A stretch of DNA of 34,292 nt. Origin: Chitinophagales bacterium. Lineage in GTDB: Bacteria; Bacteroidota; Bacteroidia; Chitinophagales; Chitinophagaceae. The stretch's first letter is position 1. Each line of letters opens with the position of its first letter. Positions 3,117 to 14,348 of the stretch are shown here, piece by piece. The notes under the pieces were generated by a model. The model saw nothing but the letters and a program-made list of their open reading frames with translations, did no database searches and was not told the DNA's origin. The position numbers and the translations under genes are program-made. The DNA lies in contig JANXQO010000065.1 in the NCBI GenBank assembly GCA_025353485.1, positions 1-34,292 on the forward strand, in the 5' to 3' direction.

Positions 3117-3748
3117 TTGTGGTTACATAAAAAACTTATTGTAAATGCACCATACAATAGTATATTCAAAGTAACCATAATAAATTGATAAATTTTCCCT
3201 TCGGGGTCAAGATGATTGCTGATCATGTATTTTAATAAACTCATTTCCACAAGGCTTCCCGCAAAAAAAAATAATAAACCGGTTGTTATCCAGAACATAG
3301 GTGTTGTAAAATAATTCATAAGCATGTCAGATGTAAAAAGCCTCATAAAATATAATAAACAGCACATTACTATTAGTATACATCCCAGGCAATATGAATA
3401 CGTATTAAAATAATAAAACCCTTCAATAAACATAATATCATATACACAGAATAACAGGTATAAAATAAACGCTGTATAAGTAATTATTTTAAATTTTTTT
3501 GTTTCAAATGTTTTGAAGAAAATAAAAAAGTAAAAGCTAAAGCTAACCGGCAAATAAATATTAATAATGAAGTGATTACTTTTTTTAGTGTATTGAGAAT
3601 AAAGACCAGACCCTATTTCTGCCGCTAAAATAAAAACCAGCAAATACAAAAAAAGCCGGAGCCATTTTGGCTGCAGCTTTTTATAAAAAATAATTACAGT
3701 GAGCAAACATATTAATGGCGGTATACAAACAATTATTATAGTTTTCAT
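3098..3748 (-). CDS. Seven-TM membrane protein in the two-component operon
   Basis: No family recognised. The 216-aa protein has about seven hydrophobic helices, beginning MKTIIIVCIPPLICLLTVII and ending in ILLYGAFTISFLC, with only short loops. I chose the ATG at 3748 rather than the in-frame ATG at 3784. The shorter start gives a 4-bp ATGA overlap with the upstream gene's stop, as at the kinase/regulator junction, and it avoids a Ser/Thr stretch encoded inside the neighbouring proline-rich tail. Because the adjacent kinase lacks a sensor domain, this protein could be its membrane input partner. That role is inferred from operon position only. Confidence 0.75.
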   Translation of the reverse strand: MKTIIIVCIPPLICLLTVIIFYKKLQPKWLRLFLYLLVFILAAEIGSGLYSQYTKKSNHFIINIYLPVSFSFYFFIFFKTFETKKFKIITYTAFILYLLFCVYDIMFIEGFYYFNTYSYCLGCILIVMCCLLYFMRLFTSDMLMNYFTTPMFWITTGLLFFFAGSLVEMSLLKYMISNHLDPEGKIYQFIMVTLNILLYGAFTISFLCNHKWKKAS

Positions 3749-4545: not shown

Positions 4546-4647
4546 AATCGAAACAAAAGCCGTTGCCTTCTGCGAATCACCTCACTCACATGTAATGCTA
4601 ACCTCAATACACCTTACAAAAAATTGCTAAGCGTTTATAAACACTCA

Positions 4648-4680
4648 CCGGCTGGCCGAAAACGGTATCAAGAGTAGGCA
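4648..4680 (+). promoter_or_regulatory. Shared leader element, copy 1 (before heme peroxidase)
   Basis: CCGG-CTG-GCCGAAAACGG-TATCAAGAGT-AGGCA, ending 15 nt before the ATG at 4696. It is nearly identical to the elements at 6239-6271 and 7203-7233. As RNA, CCG can pair with CGG after the AAAA loop, and GCC can pair with the distal GGC, giving an H-type pseudoknot. The constant distance to three start codons points to control of translation or mRNA processing. Confidence 0.65.
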
Positions 4681-4695
4681 ATAAAATAAAAAATT

Positions 4696-6201
4696 ATGAG
4701 CAACAAACACATCAGGAAACATGGAGAAATCCGCGGATTAAATGCCGTGCTATCTTCCAGTATATTTGAAGGCCGTTTTGGACGTATGTTCCGAACTTTA
4801 CCAAAAGCTCATTTTGAGGAATCTGTTTTAACCCTGCTGGCTTCTGCCATGGTTGCCAAAGCTGAACCCAATCCAACTCCTGAAACAGAAAAAGACGATG
4901 AAGAAAATAGTGGTATCAGTGCAGGCTATACTTACCTGGGGCAGTTCATTGATCATGATCTCACTTTTGATCCTGCCAGCAGCCTACAAAAAGAAAATGA
5001 TCCCAATGCCCTGGTAGATTTTAGAACACCACGATTTGATTTAGATAATTTATATGGACGTGGCCCTGATGACCAGCCTTATTTGTATGAACAGGGTGGA
5101 AAAAAATTTATTCTGGGCCGCCCACTCACCGGCAGCACAGTTGATAATAAAGTGCAGGATGTAGCAAGAAATAATCCGAAGACAGGCGACAAAAGAGCCA
5201 TCATTGGAGATCCAAGAAATGATGAAAATGTAATCATCTCGCAATTACAGGCAATTTTTTTAAGGTTTCATAACCGGGTGGTTGATGAATTTCCTGATGC
5301 CGGTTTTGAATCTATACAACGTCTTGTAAGATGGCATTATCAATGGGTGGTTTTGAATGATTTCCTGCCAACGATTATTGGCAAAAAGACGTTAGAAATA
5401 ATACTTCCGAACTTTGATAAAAAAATTGATAAAGAACATTATAAAGCAGAACTTAATTTTTACAAATGGCACAACGATCCATTTATACCTGTTGAATTTT
5501 CAGTGGCTGCATACCGTTTTGGCCATTCTATGGTTCGTCCTGTTTACCGGCTCAACCAAACCATACCCAGGTTCGAAATTTTTTCAAATGATCCGCTTAC
5601 AAGCCTTACAGGTTTCAGAGAATTCCCATCCATCTGGGCAATAGACTGGCGGCTGTTTTTTGATTTCGGAAACAACCCTAACCCGCTTTCACCAGAACGC
5701 ATTCAACCTGCTTATAAAATTGACAGTTCACTTGTTAATCCATTGGGCCATCTTCCGCCAAGTATTGGTGGCACAGTACCAAGCCTTGCTTTTAGAAATC
5801 TGCAAAGAGGTGTTACTATGGGTATTCCATCAGGCCAGGCAGTGGCAAAAAAAATGGGCCTGCCTGTTATTCCGGATGAAAAACTTAAAGTGGGAAAAGC
5901 AAACGAAGATGGGAAAACAAAAAACCCTTCAATTGCAACATTGCACCCTGCATTTAGAAATAATGCGCCACTATGGTTTTATATATTGGCCGAGGCACAA
6001 CAGGCTTTTAAAAATAATGATACACCTATACACATGGGACCAGTGGGCGGCCGCATTGTGGGGGAAGTGTTTGTAGGCATTATGCAGGGTGACAAGCATT
6101 CCTTTATAAGCCAGGATCCGTTATGGGAGCCTTTGGAAATATTTAAGAAAAATGGAAAATTTGGGATAGCAGAATTGATAAGTGCAGCCATAAACCCATA
6201 A
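4696..6201 (+). CDS. Animal-type heme peroxidase (peroxidase-cyclooxygenase superfamily)
   Basis: A 501-aa member of the An_peroxidase family, which uses a covalently or tightly bound heme to oxidise halides, phenols or fatty acids with H2O2 or O2. GQFIDHDLTFDPAS carries the distal His87 and adjacent Asp86. GDPRNDENVIISQLQAIFLR carries the expected distal Arg174, followed by FHNRVV. AAYRFGHSMVRPVYRLN carries the proximal His277. All heme-pocket positions are therefore present. There is no Sec signal peptide and no TM helix, which is unusual because eukaryotic relatives are secreted. The ATG is fixed by the leader element 15 nt upstream. It is the first gene of the plus-strand island. Whether it acts as a halogenating peroxidase or a fatty-acid oxygenase cannot be told from sequence. 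Confidence 0.93.
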   Translation: MSNKHIRKHGEIRGLNAVLSSSIFEGRFGRMFRTLPKAHFEESVLTLLASAMVAKAEPNPTPETEKDDEENSGISAGYTYLGQFIDHDLTFDPASSLQKENDPNALVDFRTPRFDLDNLYGRGPDDQPYLYEQGGKKFILGRPLTGSTVDNKVQDVARNNPKTGDKRAIIGDPRNDENVIISQLQAIFLRFHNRVVDEFPDAGFESIQRLVRWHYQWVVLNDFLPTIIGKKTLEIILPNFDKKIDKEHYKAELNFYKWHNDPFIPVEFSVAAYRFGHSMVRPVYRLNQTIPRFEIFSNDPLTSLTGFREFPSIWAIDWRLFFDFGNNPNPLSPERIQPAYKIDSSLVNPLGHLPPSIGGTVPSLAFRNLQRGVTMGIPSGQAVAKKMGLPVIPDEKLKVGKANEDGKTKNPSIATLHPAFRNNAPLWFYILAEAQQAFKNNDTPIHMGPVGGRIVGEVFVGIMQGDKHSFISQDPLWEPLEIFKKNGKFGIAELISAAINP

Positions 6202-6238
6202 ATAAAAAAGTTATCTGAAGTAATATAATATAATAAAA

Positions 6239-6271
6239 CCGGGTAGCCGAAAACGGTATCAAGAGTAGGCA
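6239..6271 (+). promoter_or_regulatory. Shared leader element, copy 2 (before zinc protease)
   Basis: CCGG-GTA-GCCGAAAACGG-TATCAAGAGT-AGGCA, ending 16 nt before the ATG at 6288. From GCCG onward it is identical to copy 1 and differs only in the three-base spacer. The surrounding sequence is not similar, so conservation is confined to the element. Confidence 0.65.
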
Positions 6272-6287
6272 AATAAAAACTGCAATA

Positions 6288-7124
6288 ATGAAAACAAAAA
6301 AACAAAAAATTAAAAAAAAAGAAATTATTCATGTTTGCATTGACAGGCCGGTAACATTACTAAATGCTCCGCAAAGAATGTTGCATTCAATAAAACATAA
6401 TAAAAAAAACAATCCTGCTGAGTCCGGAACTAAAGAACATGAATTGGTTACAAAGTTTATTGAAAATCCAAATCACAGCTTTAGCCCTACCGATGCCGGT
6501 TTGCTCGCCAGGATGGCGATTCTTACTTCTACTAAATGGCAAAAGGGAACAACAATAACAATTTCATTTCTTGATGGTTCTGCAAAACAAAAAGCCCAGG
6601 TAAAAAAAATGGCAGCTAAGTGGAAACCTTTTATTGATCTGAAACTTAGTTTCATTACCTCAAAAAAAGGAATGGTCCGTATATCGTTTGTAAGTGACCC
6701 GGGATCATGGTCATACATAGGAACAGAATGTTTATCTATTGCTGTAAATAAACCTACAATGAATTTTGGATGGCTTAAAGATAATACAGCAGACGCTGAA
6801 TGGGAGAGAGTTGTAGTTCACGAGTTTGGTCATGCACTTGGCTGCATTCATGAACATCAAAACCCTGCCGGTGGCATTAACTGGAACAAACCTGCTGTAT
6901 ATAATTATTATCAGGGACCGCCAAATAACTGGACAAAAGCAGAAGTGGATAGCAATCTCTTTCAAACATATGCTGTTTCAAAAACTCAATTTACTAAGTT
7001 GGATCCCAATTCAATTATGATGTATCCTATCCCTAAAGAGTTTTTATTAAGTGGTGATCCGGTTGGTTGGAATTTACATTTATCTCCTACTGATGAGTCA
7101 TTTATCAAAACTACTTATCCATAG
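6288..7124 (+). CDS. Astacin/matrixin-like zinc metalloprotease (metzincin)
   Basis: A 278-aa zinc endopeptidase. The extended metzincin zinc site is HEFGHALGCIHEHQNP (His178, Glu179, His182, His188), the HExxHxxGxxHE form of M12A astacins. The Met-turn is NSIMMYPIP near residues 241-249. Upstream, ISFLDGSAKQKAQVKKMAAK and RISFVSDPGSWSYIGTECLS match the N-terminal lobe of bacterial M12-like enzymes. The N-terminus is strongly basic (MKTKKQKIKKKEIIHV) with no Sec signal and no long propeptide. Its start is supported by the leader element 16 nt upstream. It lies 86 bp after the peroxidase, in the same orientation and with the same leader. The substrate is unknown. How it would leave the cell, if it does, is unclear. 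Confidence 0.92.
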   Translation: MKTKKQKIKKKEIIHVCIDRPVTLLNAPQRMLHSIKHNKKNNPAESGTKEHELVTKFIENPNHSFSPTDAGLLARMAILTSTKWQKGTTITISFLDGSAKQKAQVKKMAAKWKPFIDLKLSFITSKKGMVRISFVSDPGSWSYIGTECLSIAVNKPTMNFGWLKDNTADAEWERVVVHEFGHALGCIHEHQNPAGGINWNKPAVYNYYQGPPNNWTKAEVDSNLFQTYAVSKTQFTKLDPNSIMMYPIPKEFLLSGDPVGWNLHLSPTDESFIKTTYP

Positions 7125-7202
7125 AGAGTAAATAAATTAATTGATTTGCATCAAAATAATTAAGGGAACTAACAGCCGAACACCCTTTTAAAATAGTAAG
7201 CG

Positions 7203-7233
7203 CCGGAAAGCCGAAAACGGGATAGAGCAGGCA
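7203..7233 (+). promoter_or_regulatory. Shared leader element, copy 3 (before 133-aa gene)
   Basis: CCGG-AAA-GCCGAAAACGG-GATAGAGC-AGGCA, ending 16 nt before the ATG at 7250. The potential stems (CCG/CGG and GCC/GGC) are kept, while the loop between them is 2 nt shorter than in copies 1 and 2. That pattern is expected of a structured RNA. Confidence 0.6.
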
Positions 7234-7249
7234 GCTTAAAAATATTACT

Positions 7250-7651
7250 ATGCCATCTACAACTTCAATTACCACTGGTGGTAAAAAATGTAAGCCTTTT
7301 CTCTTACGGGTAATGATCTTTAGTCCTGAATCAGGATATAAATTTACCATTGAAATTCAAAAGGCATGTTCAAGCCAGAATGAACCTGTATGGAAATTAC
7401 TTTTTGATCTTTATAAAAAAATTGGTGCCGACTTTCAGGAAGTAGTAAGCGTTGAGTTTGTTGCAGGAGATCCCAATGATATTGATAAAATTGCTGCTGT
7501 TACTGAAGATGGCATGAAAAGATCTCAGGTTCGTTCATTTAGAGATGATGTTTATCCGCTTGTAAAACCTTTTGGTGATTCAGGACAAAAACCTAATAAC
7601 GACCAAAAGAAAATGATTGATGATAGCATGAAGAAAGCTATCAATGCTTGA
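7250..7651 (+). CDS. 133-aa unknown protein under the shared leader
   Basis: Not recognised. It is a soluble protein with a short Ser/Thr-rich N-terminus (MPSTTSITTGG), then a probably alpha/beta core containing PFLLRVMIFSPESGYKFTIE and WKLLFDLYKKIGADFQEVV. The C-terminal half is charged and helical, ending in KKMIDDSMKKAINA. There is no signal peptide or TM helix and no obvious catalytic motif. The start codon is supported by the leader element 16 nt upstream, so it is co-controlled with the peroxidase and protease. As a small non-enzymatic protein beside two potentially self-damaging enzymes it could be an inhibitor, chaperone or adaptor. That is a guess from context only. Confidence 0.75.
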   Translation: MPSTTSITTGGKKCKPFLLRVMIFSPESGYKFTIEIQKACSSQNEPVWKLLFDLYKKIGADFQEVVSVEFVAGDPNDIDKIAAVTEDGMKRSQVRSFRDDVYPLVKPFGDSGQKPNNDQKKMIDDSMKKAINA

Positions 7652-7754: not shown

Positions 7755-9554
7755 ATGAATTTATATATGCTTTTTATGATTTTTAAAAACAGCAGGTTAA
7801 TTATCCTGTTATTAGCTTGCAATCTTCTTTTGATAAATAATATGTTTTGTCAAAAGGTAGCTTGCAATACAATTACCGCTGATATGAATTTTACAGTTAG
7901 CTCTGTAAAAATTATTGGTCGCTGGGTTCCAAAAGAATTGCAGGCAAAAGTTGAACAACTTATTGGAGTAGGACAACCATTTGATCCGTCGAAAGTTGGC
8001 CTTGCAGAAGAAATAGTAAGAAGTGAAATAATAGAAAGCGACGGTAAGTTTGCAATCAGGTTATTAGGATCCACTTCAGTATTATTTATTACATCAGATA
8101 TTTGTCCCGTCTCTGATAGTTCGGAACTAAAGGAAGTACAGGTTGTAATACATCCATACTATCTGCGAATTGACCTGTACAATATTGGTAATAATATTTT
8201 ACCAATTCCACGAACTGCAAAACCTACTTTTTATAAACAGGTGCCATCACTTCTTTTGGCTACAGCACCGTATATTGGATTAATGAATGACCGCCGGTTT
8301 GGAACTTCTGCATTTATAAAAACTACAACTGATTTGTTACATATTCCCGGTATATATAATCCATCCGGAAGTTCAAAAAAACTTAGGTTAGACTTTGATA
8401 TAGATTTTAGTAAATCATTTAATAATTCTTTTTATAATAGTTCGGGATTGCTTCAATTAATTCACCCCGTTTATGCTGACTTAACTATTGGATGGTTGCT
8501 TGGTATTATATACGCTAAAAACTTACTGTCACTAAATATCAATGATTACAATCGTGAGTCCACAAAGATGTTTGCAGCTATTCATGGTAATGGAAAAAAA
8601 TCTTTTTTAAGTAAATACATGATAAGTGCTGGAGTTGAATTTTCCCAAAATAATTACACTCCCCTGAATAATAAAATTCAAAATCCTGAAACCGGCTATG
8701 AATTTAGTGCACTTATAGACGGCAGAGTTGCAAAAGGATTATCACGAATGGGAATATGGTTTAATGCCGGTATTCCAAAAAATAATATCAATTTAAAATC
8801 TTACCAGAGAATCGCCGGTAAAGCGGGTTATGCAGTTTCTATAGGGCGTGGTCATAATAATGTTGATGTGGAAACTACATTAGGTTCTGGATATACATGG
8901 GGAACTCCACCAACTTATAGCGAATATTTTGCCGGCAATACTGCTTCGGATTTTTTATATGTTCCTCTTAATTCCTTTAGTAATATGCCTTTTCCTGAAG
9001 GTCCGGTTATTCGTAGTTTAGGAGAGAGAGAAGGTGGCTTTTCTTCTGCATTTAATTCTGTTTCAGGCGGAACTTTGTATTTGGGATTGAACTTAAATTT
9101 TTCTATACCTGTTTCAAAATGGTCCTCTCCATTAATTCCTGATATAGTTATTCAGGATGAACCCCGCCGCATTACAATCCGGAGCGCTATAAAAGGACAG
9201 GTAACAACAGCAAAAAGTTTTATTGCAAATGATTTAGCCCTAAATGGCGGTCTTTCAGATGATGAAGCCGATGCTGCTGCAGAGCGTATTGTAGATAAAG
9301 ATATTAAACCAACCATAAATTATCTTGCAGACAGGGCAAATATTTATAGTATTAAACCTTTACTATTTTTTGATTTTGGAGAAATTAATAAACCCAGCGT
9401 AGGTGATAAAATATGGGCAGCTTCCGGCGCAGGTCTTCAATTAAATATTGTAAATGCAAAACTTGAAATTGGATATGTACAAACATTATTTCCAAAGAGT
9501 GATGTTTCTAAAGGAAATTTTTTGATGAGATTTTCAGTTCAAAATTTTTATTAA
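7755..9554 (+). CDS. Omp85/BamA-superfamily outer-membrane barrel with a single POTRA-like domain
   Basis: A 599-aa exported protein. Residues 1-33 are a signal peptide ending FCQ. Residues about 46-125 have a POTRA-like pattern (SSVKIIGRWVPKELQAKVEQ, then a second helix and two strands). The rest is beta-barrel. Barrel signatures are VIRSLGEREGG near residue 420, in the position of the Omp85 loop-6 (V/I)RG(F/Y) motif, followed by GGTLYLGLNLNFSIP. The last strands are LLFFDFGEI, WAASGAGLQLNI and a terminal aromatic residue (SVQNFY). The canonical RGF/Y is changed to RSL. It resembles single-POTRA members such as type Vd (patatin) translocators or TpsB. It lacks the leader element of its three upstream neighbours. 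It may export or anchor a product of the island, which is inference. Confidence 0.72.
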   Translation: MNLYMLFMIFKNSRLIILLLACNLLLINNMFCQKVACNTITADMNFTVSSVKIIGRWVPKELQAKVEQLIGVGQPFDPSKVGLAEEIVRSEIIESDGKFAIRLLGSTSVLFITSDICPVSDSSELKEVQVVIHPYYLRIDLYNIGNNILPIPRTAKPTFYKQVPSLLLATAPYIGLMNDRRFGTSAFIKTTTDLLHIPGIYNPSGSSKKLRLDFDIDFSKSFNNSFYNSSGLLQLIHPVYADLTIGWLLGIIYAKNLLSLNINDYNRESTKMFAAIHGNGKKSFLSKYMISAGVEFSQNNYTPLNNKIQNPETGYEFSALIDGRVAKGLSRMGIWFNAGIPKNNINLKSYQRIAGKAGYAVSIGRGHNNVDVETTLGSGYTWGTPPTYSEYFAGNTASDFLYVPLNSFSNMPFPEGPVIRSLGEREGGFSSAFNSVSGGTLYLGLNLNFSIPVSKWSSPLIPDIVIQDEPRRITIRSAIKGQVTTAKSFIANDLALNGGLSDDEADAAAERIVDKDIKPTINYLADRANIYSIKPLLFFDFGEINKPSVGDKIWAASGAGLQLNIVNAKLEIGYVQTLFPKSDVSKGNFLMRFSVQNFY

Positions 9555-9639
9555 AATTCTTTATAATGCCAACTTAAAAAATATATATACCCATTACTTT
9601 TCATGTAAACTAATTGAGATTTAAATTAAATCATCTTAT

Positions 9640-11700
9640 ATGCAACCCGAATCTTCTTCACCCAAAACAACACGTCCTTCTGCTAAACAGCAAAGGGAAA
9701 AACCTGCAGAAAAAACTACTGCAAAAAAACTTGATAAAAAGTTAGATGCTTTTCCTGATAAGATTGATGCAAGAGATTGGTTTTATCAGCCAACACTTAA
9801 TCCATTACCCGGGCAGTTGATCAATTGCGATAATGTGCCGGTAATTCTAAACCAGGGGCAACAAGGCGCCTGTACTGGCTTTGCGCTGGCAGCAAATATT
9901 AATTATCATCTTGCAGTAAATGGAAGGTGCAATGTTGCTGATATTGTAAAGATTGGTGCAAGCCCCAGGATGCTGTACGAAATGGCGAGAAGATATGACG
10001 AATGGCCCGGCGAAAATTATGAAGGTTCCTCTGCAAGAGGTACTATGAAAGGCTGGAATGCACACGGGGTTACTACCAGAAATTCGTGGAAGGATAATTT
10101 ATTTGGCGTTAAAAATTTTGATGAAGCAAAAGCAAAGGAAGCGCTTAATATCCCGGCAGGAGCGTATTACAGGGTTTTCCATCGTAATGTAAGAGATATG
10201 CATTCAGCATTAAATGAAGCCGGAATTTTATTTGCAACCTTAATGGTACATGATGGATGGGATGCGCCAAAAGAAATGTTTAAGATATATGAATACAGTT
10301 TTAATGATGAGATTAAAAGAATAAAATTACCAATAATACAACGCAAAGGCAGGGCAACTGATGGGCATGCAATTGCAATTATTGGCTACACAAAAGAAGG
10401 ATTTATTATACAAAATTCATGGGGTACAACGTGGGGCCACAAAGGCTTTGCGATATTGCCGTATGAAGACTGGATGCTTCATGCTTCTGATTGTTGGGTT
10501 GCACAGTTAGGCGTTCCGGTTGATCTTGATCTTTGGAGCAAAGGTTACGCAGATACTGATGCAGGTAAACAAAGAGCTTCACAGGTTATTCCGTTGGAGC
10601 AGATACGGCCGTATGTAATTAATGTTGGTAATAACGGGTTTCTCTCTGATTCAGGAAATTACTGGACAACCAAAGATGATGTTATACGTTTATTCAGCAC
10701 CATTGCAACCGCTGCTGCCACATGGAAAAAGAAACGCATCATGTTATATCTGCATGGCGGATTAAATTCAGAAAAAGAAGTTGCCGCCAGAATTATAAGT
10801 TTTAAAGATGTATGCCTGGATAATGAAATATACCCCGTACACATTATGTGGGAAACAGATTTCTGGACATCATTAAAAAATAATCTATTAGATGTTTTTA
10901 CAAATGATGATAAGGCAGACGCTAACTGGTTAAATAAATTAAGAGAAGGCGCATTGGAAATTCTTGACCGCACTTTTGAATTAACAGCTTCAAAGCCTGG
11001 TACTATGTTGTGGAATGAAATGAAAGAGAATGCAAGCCTTGCATCAAGAGAAGGAAGATCAATGGATATTGTGGCTACCGAAGCTTTAAAAGCATTCAGC
11101 GCAGTAGATGCTTCAAATAAAAATAATTGGGAACTGCATATCGTAGCACATAGCGCCGGTTCAATTTTTACTGCTTATACCATTGATACTTTGCTTCGCA
11201 TTGGCGTACCCATCCGCTCCGTGCAATTTATGGCGCCTGCAATTTCCATTGATGTGTTTAAGGAAAAACTTCTACCGCATATACAAAATAAAGATTGCCC
11301 TTTACCAACCATGTATATTTTAAGTGATGTAGGTGAGAGGGATGATGATGTTGGGCCTTATGGAAAATCGCTGTTATACCTTGTTAGCAATTCGTTTGAG
11401 CCGAAAAGAAATACACCCATACTTGGTATGGAACGTTTTATTAACGGACGGAATAGTAAGCTGGATAAATCTTTTATTGATCCTGTAATTTCTAAATTAT
11501 TTACTGCAACTGTTGATAATTGGCCAAGTCTTGTAATTGCGGGTGCAGCGGACGCATCAGCTAAAGTGGGTCCGGATATAAGCAGGAGCGATTCACATGG
11601 TGGCTTTGATAACGATGCCTATACTTTAAATTCAGTGCTGTTCAGAATTCTTGGTAAAAAACCAACAAGATTATTTGATGCAAGAGATTTGCAATTTTAA
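9640..11700 (+). CDS. Papain-like (C1) cysteine protease fused to an alpha/beta hydrolase
   Basis: A 686-aa two-enzyme fusion. Residues 1-40 are a Lys/Pro/Ser-rich, probably disordered leader without a Sec signal. Residues about 45-300 are a C1A peptidase with NQGQQGACTGFA (oxyanion Gln72 or Gln75, nucleophile Cys78), TDGHAIAIIGY (His243) and IIQNSWGTTWGHKGF (Asn259). Residues about 360-670 look like an alpha/beta hydrolase. IMLYLHGGLNSEKE gives the oxyanion region, LHIVAHSAGSIF gives the nucleophile elbow with Ser505, and DSHGGFDND gives a likely catalytic His653. All catalytic residues of both modules appear intact. The gene sits 85 bp after the Omp85-like gene. Substrates are unknown; the C-terminal module could be a lipase or esterase. 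Confidence 0.88.
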   Translation: MQPESSSPKTTRPSAKQQREKPAEKTTAKKLDKKLDAFPDKIDARDWFYQPTLNPLPGQLINCDNVPVILNQGQQGACTGFALAANINYHLAVNGRCNVADIVKIGASPRMLYEMARRYDEWPGENYEGSSARGTMKGWNAHGVTTRNSWKDNLFGVKNFDEAKAKEALNIPAGAYYRVFHRNVRDMHSALNEAGILFATLMVHDGWDAPKEMFKIYEYSFNDEIKRIKLPIIQRKGRATDGHAIAIIGYTKEGFIIQNSWGTTWGHKGFAILPYEDWMLHASDCWVAQLGVPVDLDLWSKGYADTDAGKQRASQVIPLEQIRPYVINVGNNGFLSDSGNYWTTKDDVIRLFSTIATAAATWKKKRIMLYLHGGLNSEKEVAARIISFKDVCLDNEIYPVHIMWETDFWTSLKNNLLDVFTNDDKADANWLNKLREGALEILDRTFELTASKPGTMLWNEMKENASLASREGRSMDIVATEALKAFSAVDASNKNNWELHIVAHSAGSIFTAYTIDTLLRIGVPIRSVQFMAPAISIDVFKEKLLPHIQNKDCPLPTMYILSDVGERDDDVGPYGKSLLYLVSNSFEPKRNTPILGMERFINGRNSKLDKSFIDPVISKLFTATVDNWPSLVIAGAADASAKVGPDISRSDSHGGFDNDAYTLNSVLFRILGKKPTRLFDARDLQF

Positions 11701-11784
11701 TGCAGGTTGGTTGCCTGTAGGGTTCGGCACGGGGTAATTGATTGTTGTAGAGAAATTTATTTATAAACTTTAAACTATATTTTT

Positions 11785-12405
11785 ATGCCCGACATAATTT
11801 TAAAAGTTGTACTTCCAACTATAGGGTTGATAATAATTTTGTTATGTTTAGGCGCCTATTTTTTTAAATACGGCGCCAATATAAAAGACAGCGTTCAGGA
11901 AATTAAAATGCTAGGCGCTGATATGAAAATTTCTATCATCACTGTTTTTGTTTTGGTTGGGCTTATATTAATTTTTGCGGGCACCTATTTTAATATCGTG
12001 AACACCAATTCAAAACTGGCAAAAATGTTAGATGATGAAAAACAAAAGAGTAACGATTCTCAAACGCAATTGTTTAAATTACAGGGCGAGGTAAATTCAT
12101 TAAAGCTTTCTCAGAATAAAACCCTTAATTATTTTCTTGATCTTGATGGCGTAGCAGATATTCCTAATCCAAAAGATTTAAAAGTAACCTACAAACTTTG
12201 GGGAGATGAGGACAAAGAGAATGTTCTCAATTGTTCACCCGTTACGCAAAACGACAAACAAAGACTGTATGTAACGATATCCGATCTTAAACCGGAGAGC
12301 TTTATAACTTCTTTAATGGTAGAAGACATAAAAACAAAACATAAGTGGAAAGTAAGCAGCTTCTATCCTTTATCACCATCTATTAAATTAACTTCTGTAA
12401 ATTAG
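11785..12405 (+). CDS. Two-TM protein with coiled coil and beta-rich C-terminal domain
   Basis: Family not recognised, 206 aa. TM1 (about residues 8-27, LPTIGLIIILLCLGAYFF) and TM2 (about 50-69, ITVFVLVGLILIFAGTYF) form an N-terminal hairpin. A coiled coil follows (about 72-112, including KLAKMLDDEKQKSNDSQTQL). The C-terminal domain of about 90 residues looks beta-rich (LKVTYKLWGDEDKE, QRLYVTISDLKPESF, HKWKVSSFYPLSPSIKL) and may be Ig-like. It precedes the YEATS-domain gene by 5 bp, so the two are almost certainly co-translated. A membrane-tethered sensor or scaffold is a reasonable guess, but no function is proven. Confidence 0.8.
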   Translation: MPDIILKVVLPTIGLIIILLCLGAYFFKYGANIKDSVQEIKMLGADMKISIITVFVLVGLILIFAGTYFNIVNTNSKLAKMLDDEKQKSNDSQTQLFKLQGEVNSLKLSQNKTLNYFLDLDGVADIPNPKDLKVTYKLWGDEDKENVLNCSPVTQNDKQRLYVTISDLKPESFITSLMVEDIKTKHKWKVSSFYPLSPSIKLTSVN

Positions 12406-12410
12406 ATTGT

Positions 12411-12803
12411 ATGTTGTACAGAAACTTTCTGCTTTTCCTCCTCATTATTATTTCGCCTGTTACTGTTGCTCAGCAAATAGCAATAAATAATACTTCATCC
12501 TTATCCGGTAGAAGTGGTTATTATAACTGGACGGTTTTTGTACAGGCAGATTATGCTACGCTTAACAATATAGATCATGTGGAATATTTATTACATCCCA
12601 CTTTTCCTAATCCGCAGGTAAGCAGCAATAACAGGAATATCAATTTTGGCTTTTCGTCAACCGGCTGGGGTGAATTTGAGATAAAAGTAAAAGTTGTTTT
12701 TAAAAACAGGCAGCCACCTCAATACATTTCCTATTGGTTGCGGTTACAATCTAAAATTATAAAAGTACCATTAAGGTCTGTGAGGCAGGTTTATAAAAGA
12801 TAA
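12411..12803 (+). CDS. Exported prokaryotic YEATS-domain protein
   Basis: A 130-aa protein with a Sec signal peptide (residues 1-20, cleavage probably before QQIA) followed by one YEATS-like domain. The diagnostic motifs are HVEYLLHPTFPNPQV (residues 56-70) and STGWGEFEIKVKVVF (83-97). The second is almost the same as the GWGEFEI segment of eukaryotic GAS41/Yaf9-type YEATS domains. The reader-pocket positions His62, Thr64, Phe65 and Trp86-Gly87 are conserved. Eukaryotic YEATS domains bind acyl-lysine; bacterial pYEATS ligands are, to my knowledge, undefined. Being exported, it would act in the periplasm or at the surface, not on DNA. It directly follows the two-TM gene and precedes the patatin. 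Confidence 0.8.
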   Translation: MLYRNFLLFLLIIISPVTVAQQIAINNTSSLSGRSGYYNWTVFVQADYATLNNIDHVEYLLHPTFPNPQVSSNNRNINFGFSSTGWGEFEIKVKVVFKNRQPPQYISYWLRLQSKIIKVPLRSVRQVYKR

Positions 12804-12878
12804 ATGAATAATAAGTAATCTTTGTTGTTGAAACGAATAAGATAAATAACAACGGAATAAATAAATTAAATTCTAAAT

Positions 12879-14348
12879 ATGGCACAAGAGCTTACCCATG
12901 ATGATTTCATTAATAATGATACTGTAAAAAAATGTCTTAGCGATTTAAAGGCAGCGTATCCTGCGGGTGGTAAATCTTTTGTTGTTTCTGATGTTATAGA
13001 CGATAAAGGAAATCAATATGTAAACCTTGTACAAAAAGGCGGCGGCGTATTAGGCATTGCGTTGGTGGGCTATACGTATATTCTGGAGGAGATGGGCATT
13101 CGTTTTATAAGGCTTGCCGGCACCAGCGCAGGCGCTATCAATACAGCTTTAATGGTTGCAACCGGAACAAAACAGGATGCTAAATCAATACCGGTATTAG
13201 ATGCGATTTGTAAACTTGAATTTATTAAACTGGTTGATGGACATCCGGCTGCACGTTGGTTAATAAGCAAATTTATTACGCATGTAGATTTTGGCAAAAG
13301 GATAAAAAGCTGGATCAGGGCCATTTTGGGCACATTAGCCATGCTGCTTGTTGGCGATTTTGTTTTCCTCGGATTGCAGCATAGCTTACCCTGGATATCA
13401 GTTTTTACAAAAGTGTTTTTTGTTCTTACAGGCCTTTGCCTATTGATTGTTGCGGGGGTAATCACTTATGTAGATACTCTTTTAAAGCGGTTTAAAAATT
13501 CAGGTATTGGTATTAACCCGGGAGATTTTTTTTACGACTGGATAAAACAACAGCTTGCTGACAATGGTGTAACAACCGTTACTGACCTAAACAATAAAGC
13601 CACATCTCCTGTACCTGGCCTTCATTTAAGGGTTCCCAATCCTGAAGAATTAAAAGGGCTTGATGGGGATGTAACTTTTATTACCTCTGAACTGGTATCT
13701 CAAAATAAAATTCAGTTTCCTGAAATGTGGTACCTCTTCAGAAAAACTATTGATGCTCTGCAGCCCGCAGGTTTTATCAGAGCTTCGATGTCTATTCCTG
13801 TATTTTTTGAATCTTATTTCATTAATGAAATTCCGTGCGATGATGAGGATATAAAAAAGTTATGGTTAGATAAATTCGGCGAAACAGATCCACCCTCTTC
13901 TGCACGTTTTGTTGATGGCGGTATATTATCCAACTTCCCGATAAACCTGTTTTATAATCCAAAAGTTATTACACCCAGGCTTCCCTCTTTTGGTATAGAC
14001 CTGGATGACAGTGCGCCCGGTGATGTTGGTAAACATGCAATAAAGTGGACACTGCTTGGTTACTTTGGAAGAATATTTAATACCATCAGGTTTTACTACG
14101 ATAAAGATTTTTTATTAAAAAATAAAGTATTTAAAAAAGGTATCGGAACAATTCATTTGAATGGTTACAACTGGCTAAACTTTTTTTTAACCAATGAGGA
14201 TAAAATAAACATGTTTGTCAAAGGAGCTGAGGCTGCTGCCGATTTTTTAAAAACGTTTGATTGGAATGATTATAAAGAAGACCGTGATAAAATGCGCAAA
14301 GAATTACTTAAAGAACAAACACCAACTACTATAACTCCTGAAAAATAA
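12879..14348 (+). CDS. Patatin-like phospholipase with an inserted TM hairpin
   Basis: A 489-aa serine acyl-hydrolase of the patatin family, which acts on phospholipids or acyl-lipids using a Ser-Asp dyad. The oxyanion loop GGGVLG spans residues 54-59, the nucleophile elbow is GTSAGA with Ser83, and the dyad Asp is in FVDGGILSNFPI (Asp346). Two hydrophobic helices (about residues 147-165 and 176-197) sit between the nucleophile and the Asp, so the enzyme should be held on the inner membrane. There is no N-terminal signal, so the catalytic half probably faces the cytoplasm. The stop is 6 bp from the next gene, which encodes a 5-TM protein. The catalytic assignment is secure; the substrate is not known. 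Confidence 0.92.
   Translation: MAQELTHDDFINNDTVKKCLSDLKAAYPAGGKSFVVSDVIDDKGNQYVNLVQKGGGVLGIALVGYTYILEEMGIRFIRLAGTSAGAINTALMVATGTKQDAKSIPVLDAICKLEFIKLVDGHPAARWLISKFITHVDFGKRIKSWIRAILGTLAMLLVGDFVFLGLQHSLPWISVFTKVFFVLTGLCLLIVAGVITYVDTLLKRFKNSGIGINPGDFFYDWIKQQLADNGVTTVTDLNNKATSPVPGLHLRVPNPEELKGLDGDVTFITSELVSQNKIQFPEMWYLFRKTIDALQPAGFIRASMSIPVFFESYFINEIPCDDEDIKKLWLDKFGETDPPSSARFVDGGILSNFPINLFYNPKVITPRLPSFGIDLDDSAPGDVGKHAIKWTLLGYFGRIFNTIRFYYDKDFLLKNKVFKKGIGTIHLNGYNWLNFFLTNEDKINMFVKGAEAAADFLKTFDWNDYKEDRDKMRKELLKEQTPTTITPEK

Follow-up and report, generated by a model that had tools for sequence, protein, structure and literature searches.

The window analysed here is a stretch of 34,292 nt from a Chitinophagales bacterium (contig JANXQO010000065.1). 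On its forward strand lie genes for an animal-type haem peroxidase of 501 residues (4696–6201; PF03098, E = 1.1e-19), a matrixin/astacin-like zinc protease of 278 residues (6288–7124; PF00413, 24.6 bits with a cut-off of 24, and PF01400, 22.1 bits with a cut-off of 22.5), and a protein of 133 residues (7250–7651), which belongs to no Pfam family and matched only itself in 244 genomes of the same family at E ≤ 1e-5. Each gene is preceded by a leader of the form CCGG-N3-GCCGAAAACGG-N8/10-AGGCA, and the preliminary description had placed these leaders exactly, in position and in letters, at 4648–4680, 6239–6271 and 7203–7233. The gaps of 15, 16 and 16 nt that it gave between leader and ATG, at 4696, 6288 and 7250, are also correct.

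Copy 1 occupies 4647–4680 on the forward strand. Its first helix, P1, pairs 4648–4650 with 4663–4665, with an outer A4647–T4666 pair, and its second helix, P2, pairs 4655–4657 with 4677–4679; the loops GAAAA and AGAGTA are at 4658–4662 and 4671–4676. Copy 2 (6238–6271, forward) has P1 at 6239–6241/6254–6256 and P2 at 6246–6248/6268–6270, and has the same letters as copy 1 from GCC through GGCA. In copy 3 (7203–7233, forward), P1 is at 7203–7205/7218–7220 and P2 at 7210–7212/7230–7232. As had been noted before, the loop of copy 3 is 2 nt shorter than in copies 1 and 2, and it reads AGAGCA rather than AGAGTA, a change seen in 1 of 136 compiled elements with a finder that accepts either letter. 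A small-ORF reading of the leader was dropped on inspection because of this 2-nt change in length. The core CCGGNNNGCCGAAAACGG is matched exactly at three places in the window, and allowing up to 2 mismatches adds none, while the chance expectation is 0.01 per window (mean of 100 shuffles) and none of the 100 shuffles had three. The identity of copies 1 and 2 from GCC through GGCA might suggest a recent local duplication, or the similarity might be due to chance, but the low expectation and the presence of the element before unrelated genes in many genera leave this explanation with a negligible probability. The leaders are real, functional-looking RNA. When folded with nested pairs only, the window copies do no better than shuffled sequences (z = −0.35, −0.99 and −0.47), which is expected for a weak pseudoknot and yields no support for one either.

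What is the identity of this RNA? The preliminary description took the leader to be without a name, and this was wrong. By sequence likeness, the three leaders are divergent members of DUF805b RNA (Rfam RF02914; clan CL00115, type Cis-reg) in a form with a CCG/CGG first helix. DUF805b was already known as a catalogued RNA, and the family reportedly comes from a 2017 survey by Weinberg and co-workers; our text searches of the literature found no paper naming DUF805b or describing its function. A scan of the window at the Rfam gathering threshold gave no match, and RF02914 was found in the window solely under an E-value setting. Copy 2 aligns with positions 1–35 of the 35 in the model, with 34.8 bits against the gathering score of 35.6 (E = 2.3e-6, window scan). 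Copy 1 (22.4 bits, E = 0.035 for the window) and copy 3, the weakest (15.6 bits, E = 0.199 for the whole genome), are individually weak, and their membership rests on likeness to copy 2. Since all three copies score below 35.6 bits, a default Rfam scan misses them. This score is a curation threshold and not a structural feature. Relatives of the CCG/CGG type reach 41.1, 39.5 and 36.1 bits. Of the 23 elements in 20 loci picked for the CCG type, 6 reach the gathering score, 5 of these being among the 21 with CGG, so the Rfam threshold misses 17 of the 23.

The leaders share with RF02914 the 35-position layout, the conserved CCGAAAA and AGAGUAGG, the P1 columns, and a gene downstream. The consensus P1 of the family is GGC/GCC, whereas P1 in the window is CCG/CGG, altered on both sides in the same columns, and it likewise closes the GGAA-xCC-GAAAA segment. 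The whole-model homology, with both conserved segments, is significant for copy 2, and all three copies have the cis-regulatory position before a coding region. The printed structure line of RF02914 holds P1 alone; we have added P2 from covariation.

In the whole 3.82-Mb genome, GCCGAAAACGG-N4-12-AGGC occurs at the three window places only, and the reversed-pattern control has 1 match. A fourth, sequence-diverged element is found on the minus strand of contig C93 of this genome, G000 (3462–3494; RF02914, 33.2 bits). It reads ACGG-GAAC-GCT-GAAAA-CCG-AAT-AGAGTA-AGC, and with P1 CGG/CCG and P2 GCT/AGC it keeps both helices in other letters, 22 nt ahead of a 68-aa reading frame. At E ≤ 1 the genome has 11 matches to RF02914, but all 14 control genomes match at that level too, and we accept as real the C93 element and the three window copies alone. 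A match in contig C94, inside an ORF that looked on visual inspection like a sigma-54 activator, was rejected.

In the same family, GCCGAAAACGG-N4-14-AGGC was found in 41 of 244 genomes; the reversed pattern likewise occurs in a number of genomes. AGAG(T/C)AGGC is present at 33 of the 52 listed places in these genomes, although AGAGTA was not in the search pattern, and the other 19 look like chance matches. Among the family copies fetched, the gene starts 13–18 nt past GGC, with one at 23 nt, and one locus (L020) is without a reading frame of 60 aa. A looser genome-wide pattern scan was unspecific, and the matches listed were mostly in unrelated organisms. At E ≤ 1e-4, RF02914 has matches in 82 of the 296 Bacteroidota genomes scanned, and in 57 of these the cut-off is exceeded; a single genome holds as many as 15 matches, and none of the 14 control genomes has any. 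In one Bacteroidetes MAG, two genes are each preceded by two adjacent tandem DUF805b elements (L095, 768–833 and 1407–1472); tandem arrangement is known in some ligand-binding RNAs as well. Elsewhere, four Acido-Lenti-1 RNA matches above threshold occur in a 3-kb stretch upstream of a DUF805b-led gene (L016, 362–1095).

The preliminary description had proposed that the leader forms an H-type pseudoknot from CCG/CGG and GCC/GGC, and that the pairing would be conserved in homologous leaders. As a guard against circularity, homologues were selected by their loops, with CCGAAAA-N4-15-AGAGTAGG in 395 genomes of the phylum, a search that fixes the letters of the loops and of the two inner P2 pairs; this set is excluded as evidence of loop conservation, just as the 136 compiled elements, picked for pairing, are excluded as evidence of pairing. 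The pattern matched in 104 of the 395 genomes, and for the reversed control a minority of genomes had one or two matches. In the resulting structure set (30 loci given, 31 hits), the P1 core with a 4-nt loop pairs fully in 25 hits (2,000 shuffles: mean 5.0, maximum 12), and in 29 when L1 may have 3–5 nt. The outer P2 pair is present in 28 (shuffled mean 18.2, maximum 24). The P2 failures (L272, L281 and L289) may be chance hits; P1 nevertheless forms in L281.

For the covariation analysis, the loop-selected hits, window copies 1–3 and the fourth genomic copy were combined in one alignment of 34 rows, from which only a duplicate of copy 1 was dropped. Paired cells amount to 93.5% (68.7 in shuffled alignments), and 45 cells are altered on both sides (shuffled 12.4). 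The covariation score is 0.547, as compared with 0.127 for shuffled and at most 0.073 for slid alignments. Weaker measures discriminate less, double-change pairs being equalled by 10 of 500 shuffles and further pair types by 65 of 500. In most rows the search itself dictates the inner P2 pairs and the loops, so that their lack of variation cannot count as evidence. The compensatory changes back exactly the two pairings proposed. In the 136 compiled elements, L3 before AGAGTA varies from 1 to 10 nt. The 3' strand of P1 is CGG in 30 of the 136, and so a competing CCG-AAAA-CGG hairpin is possible in those alone.

The tie to start codons also holds in the wider sets. Of the 28 paired hits in the loop-selected bacterial set, 26 have an ATG opening at least 35 codons 12–30 nt downstream, and of the 3 unpaired hits 1 has one. 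Among the matches listed in viral contigs, the same is true for 69 of 87 paired and 9 of 38 unpaired hits (Fisher p = 5e-9), while 8.5% of random places have an ATG so placed. A reading frame begins at 10–30 nt in 127 of the 136 compiled elements, and 5 have none. In the window, 16–17 nt separate the end of P2 from the AUG; the median in the wider sets is 21 nt, and the spacer is A-rich. Both helices, the homology and the position are features of these leaders.

We also considered a DNA element, that is, a promoter, operator or recombination site, for which the high conservation of letters and the repeated use before genes might speak. Against this are the compensatory changes in both helices and the variable L3, which suits a loop better than a protein–DNA site. 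Furthermore, a search for a promoter box at a fixed distance found none. The 100 nt upstream contain 12 TAnnTTTG boxes, few and scattered, as expected for an RNA-level element, and it is the distance to the ATG that is kept instead. Consequently, we regard a DNA element as very improbable.

The preliminary description had foreseen matches mainly before peroxidase, protease or related genes, and this is not what we find; the downstream families are diverse and include phage genes. From 127 downstream proteins, 123 were taken as targets, 4 being left out as near-duplicates. By NCBIfam (25 of 48 families listed), 11 are bacteriocin-like GG-leader peptides and 3 are CCPGW peptides, with possible overlap. 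Pfam gives 51 families, and among the 25 listed none has more than 5 members; these include subtilases, astacin/matrixin, caspase, tail collar, DUF2589, one DUF805 protein, one rhodopsin and others. With such diverse families, no single pathway is apparent.

Could the element simply set a level of translation? It might act without regulation, as a translational enhancer, an insulator or a stabiliser of the 5' end for accessory and phage genes. It is short, lies near the AUG with an A-rich spacer, and is used by phages, all of which would fit. However, the conserved unpaired CCGAAAA, AGAGUAGG and AGAGTA exceed the needs of a stabilising structure, and the 25 of 51 Pfam families listed include no ribosomal or obviously core, highly expressed family. 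We think this explanation unlikely, though it deserves more weight than a DNA element.

In the window, the three led genes are followed on the same strand (7755–14348) by genes for a 599-aa protein and for papain-like, membrane, pYEATS and patatin proteins, and no further core match occurs among them. Patatin-like and papain-like proteins, by eye, are also found near DUF805b-led genes elsewhere (for example, L167 and L172), hinting at a recurring module.

At least 120 stretches of IMG/VR viral contigs, which may hold host DNA, carry the loop pattern. Among the matches listed, 126 viral hits were assessed; both helices are present in 88, of which 77 have an ORF within 44 nt, and of the 38 without both helices 15 have one. 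A stricter finder gave 90 elements in 1.07 Mb of the listed viral stretches and 0 in the reversed sequence. Of 79 viral downstream ORFs, 73 proteins were kept (6 were duplicates or shorter than 50 aa), and among the matches listed a single ParB-like PHROG family accounts for 16 of the 73. The isolated Flavobacterium phage lillamy9-1 carries one DUF805b element in the 24.8 of 38.3 kb read (L435, 11946–11980; RF02914, 52.1 bits). There, the end of P2 is 21 nt before an annotated ParB-like gene, near genes for single-strand binding and primase/helicase proteins. The led phage genes are probably early genes. No element was found in phages elemoE (32.7 of 60 kb read) and P12002L (25 of 48.7 kb read), which encode distant homologues of another led protein, with 42% identity for the elemoE homologue. 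Thus, the leader does not always travel with its gene. Short BLAST queries against named phages gave no credible homologue, and for one led phage protein no named relative was found.

What does the pseudoknot respond to? One possibility is that it is the site for a global RNA-binding protein, encoded by the host and used by phages too, that represses or activates translation. Some genomes have several targets (up to 15 matches), and this, like the adjacent tandem elements and the use by phages, would suit a global regulator. A dedicated regulator might be sought next to the elements, but no neighbour family is present at most loci, and even the commonest ones are limited to 13 of 66 genomes each. 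In 695 kb of neighbourhoods from the 66 genomes (overlapping loci included), two families have 14 and 17 members, as compared with 3.5 expected for each from a 400-kb control in which the counts are only 2 each. These families, which seem enriched near the elements (neighbourhoods L162–L271), resemble by our reading the sensors and response regulators of two-component systems, not RNA-binding proteins, and among the 22 commonest neighbour families listed no RNA-binding gene stands out. A regulator gene elsewhere in the genome is compatible with these results. We consider a global RNA-binding protein a tentative alternative, well short of our preferred one.

Our preferred explanation, which we consider probable as a whole, is that the DUF805b pseudoknot leaders have a pocket binding a signal and alter translation of the three genes. 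Most likely, the leader is a translational control pseudoknot answering a signal or factor, and the translational switch suggested in the preliminary description would be plausible. Each mRNA leader would fold as a compact H-type pseudoknot, with P1 CCG/CGG, a 4-nt loop and P2 GCC/GGC, in which the conserved loops GAAAA and AGAGUA may make the pocket. Binding would stabilise the short helices, and the stabilised pseudoknot would change how readily the 30S subunit reaches the spacer and AUG. Three unrelated genes would thereby respond to one signal, with translation as the presumed regulated level. A small molecule is our best single guess for the ligand, at slightly less than even chances, and a protein is possible but clearly less favoured. 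In folding of 127 elements, no sequestration of the start region by the element was found (0.628 unpaired, as compared with 0.629 for shuffled elements, p = 0.37), so how the fold would act on translation is not apparent. In the simplest model, a factor would stabilise the pseudoknot and owe its effect to closeness to the 30S site. We count against the explanation the elemoE homologue without an element, the loop change in copy 3, and the scores below the gathering threshold. A study of F. johnsoniae describes initiation there as using no SD and depending on local structure and upstream adenines, with bS1 placed to meet about −12 to −15 (PMC6847099). The leader spacer spans this place.

More broadly, we suggest, with considerable reserve, that DUF805b is an orphan pseudoknot switch of Bacteroidota and their phages, in which one global signal would set translation of antagonism-peptide, secreted-enzyme and accessory genes in the host, and phages would exploit this signal too for genes that are probably early, ParB-like ones among them. 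Covariation support for a two-helix pseudoknot, a first gene list and a link to phages come from the present analysis. With a directly probeable motif of about 33 nt before GG-leader peptide and phage ParB-like genes, what DUF805b senses becomes testable.

Small H-type pseudoknots are familiar among regulatory RNAs, the preQ1-I riboswitch being one. At the elements, the Rfam scans gave no match to a family of the SAM-V or preQ1-I type. The likeness of the leaders to SAM-V is that of a small H-type pseudoknot, and SAM-V reportedly controls translation (PMC6061858). The difference from both SAM-V and preQ1-I is that, by the statement on this lineage in PMC6847099, there is no SD here for the pseudoknot to hide.
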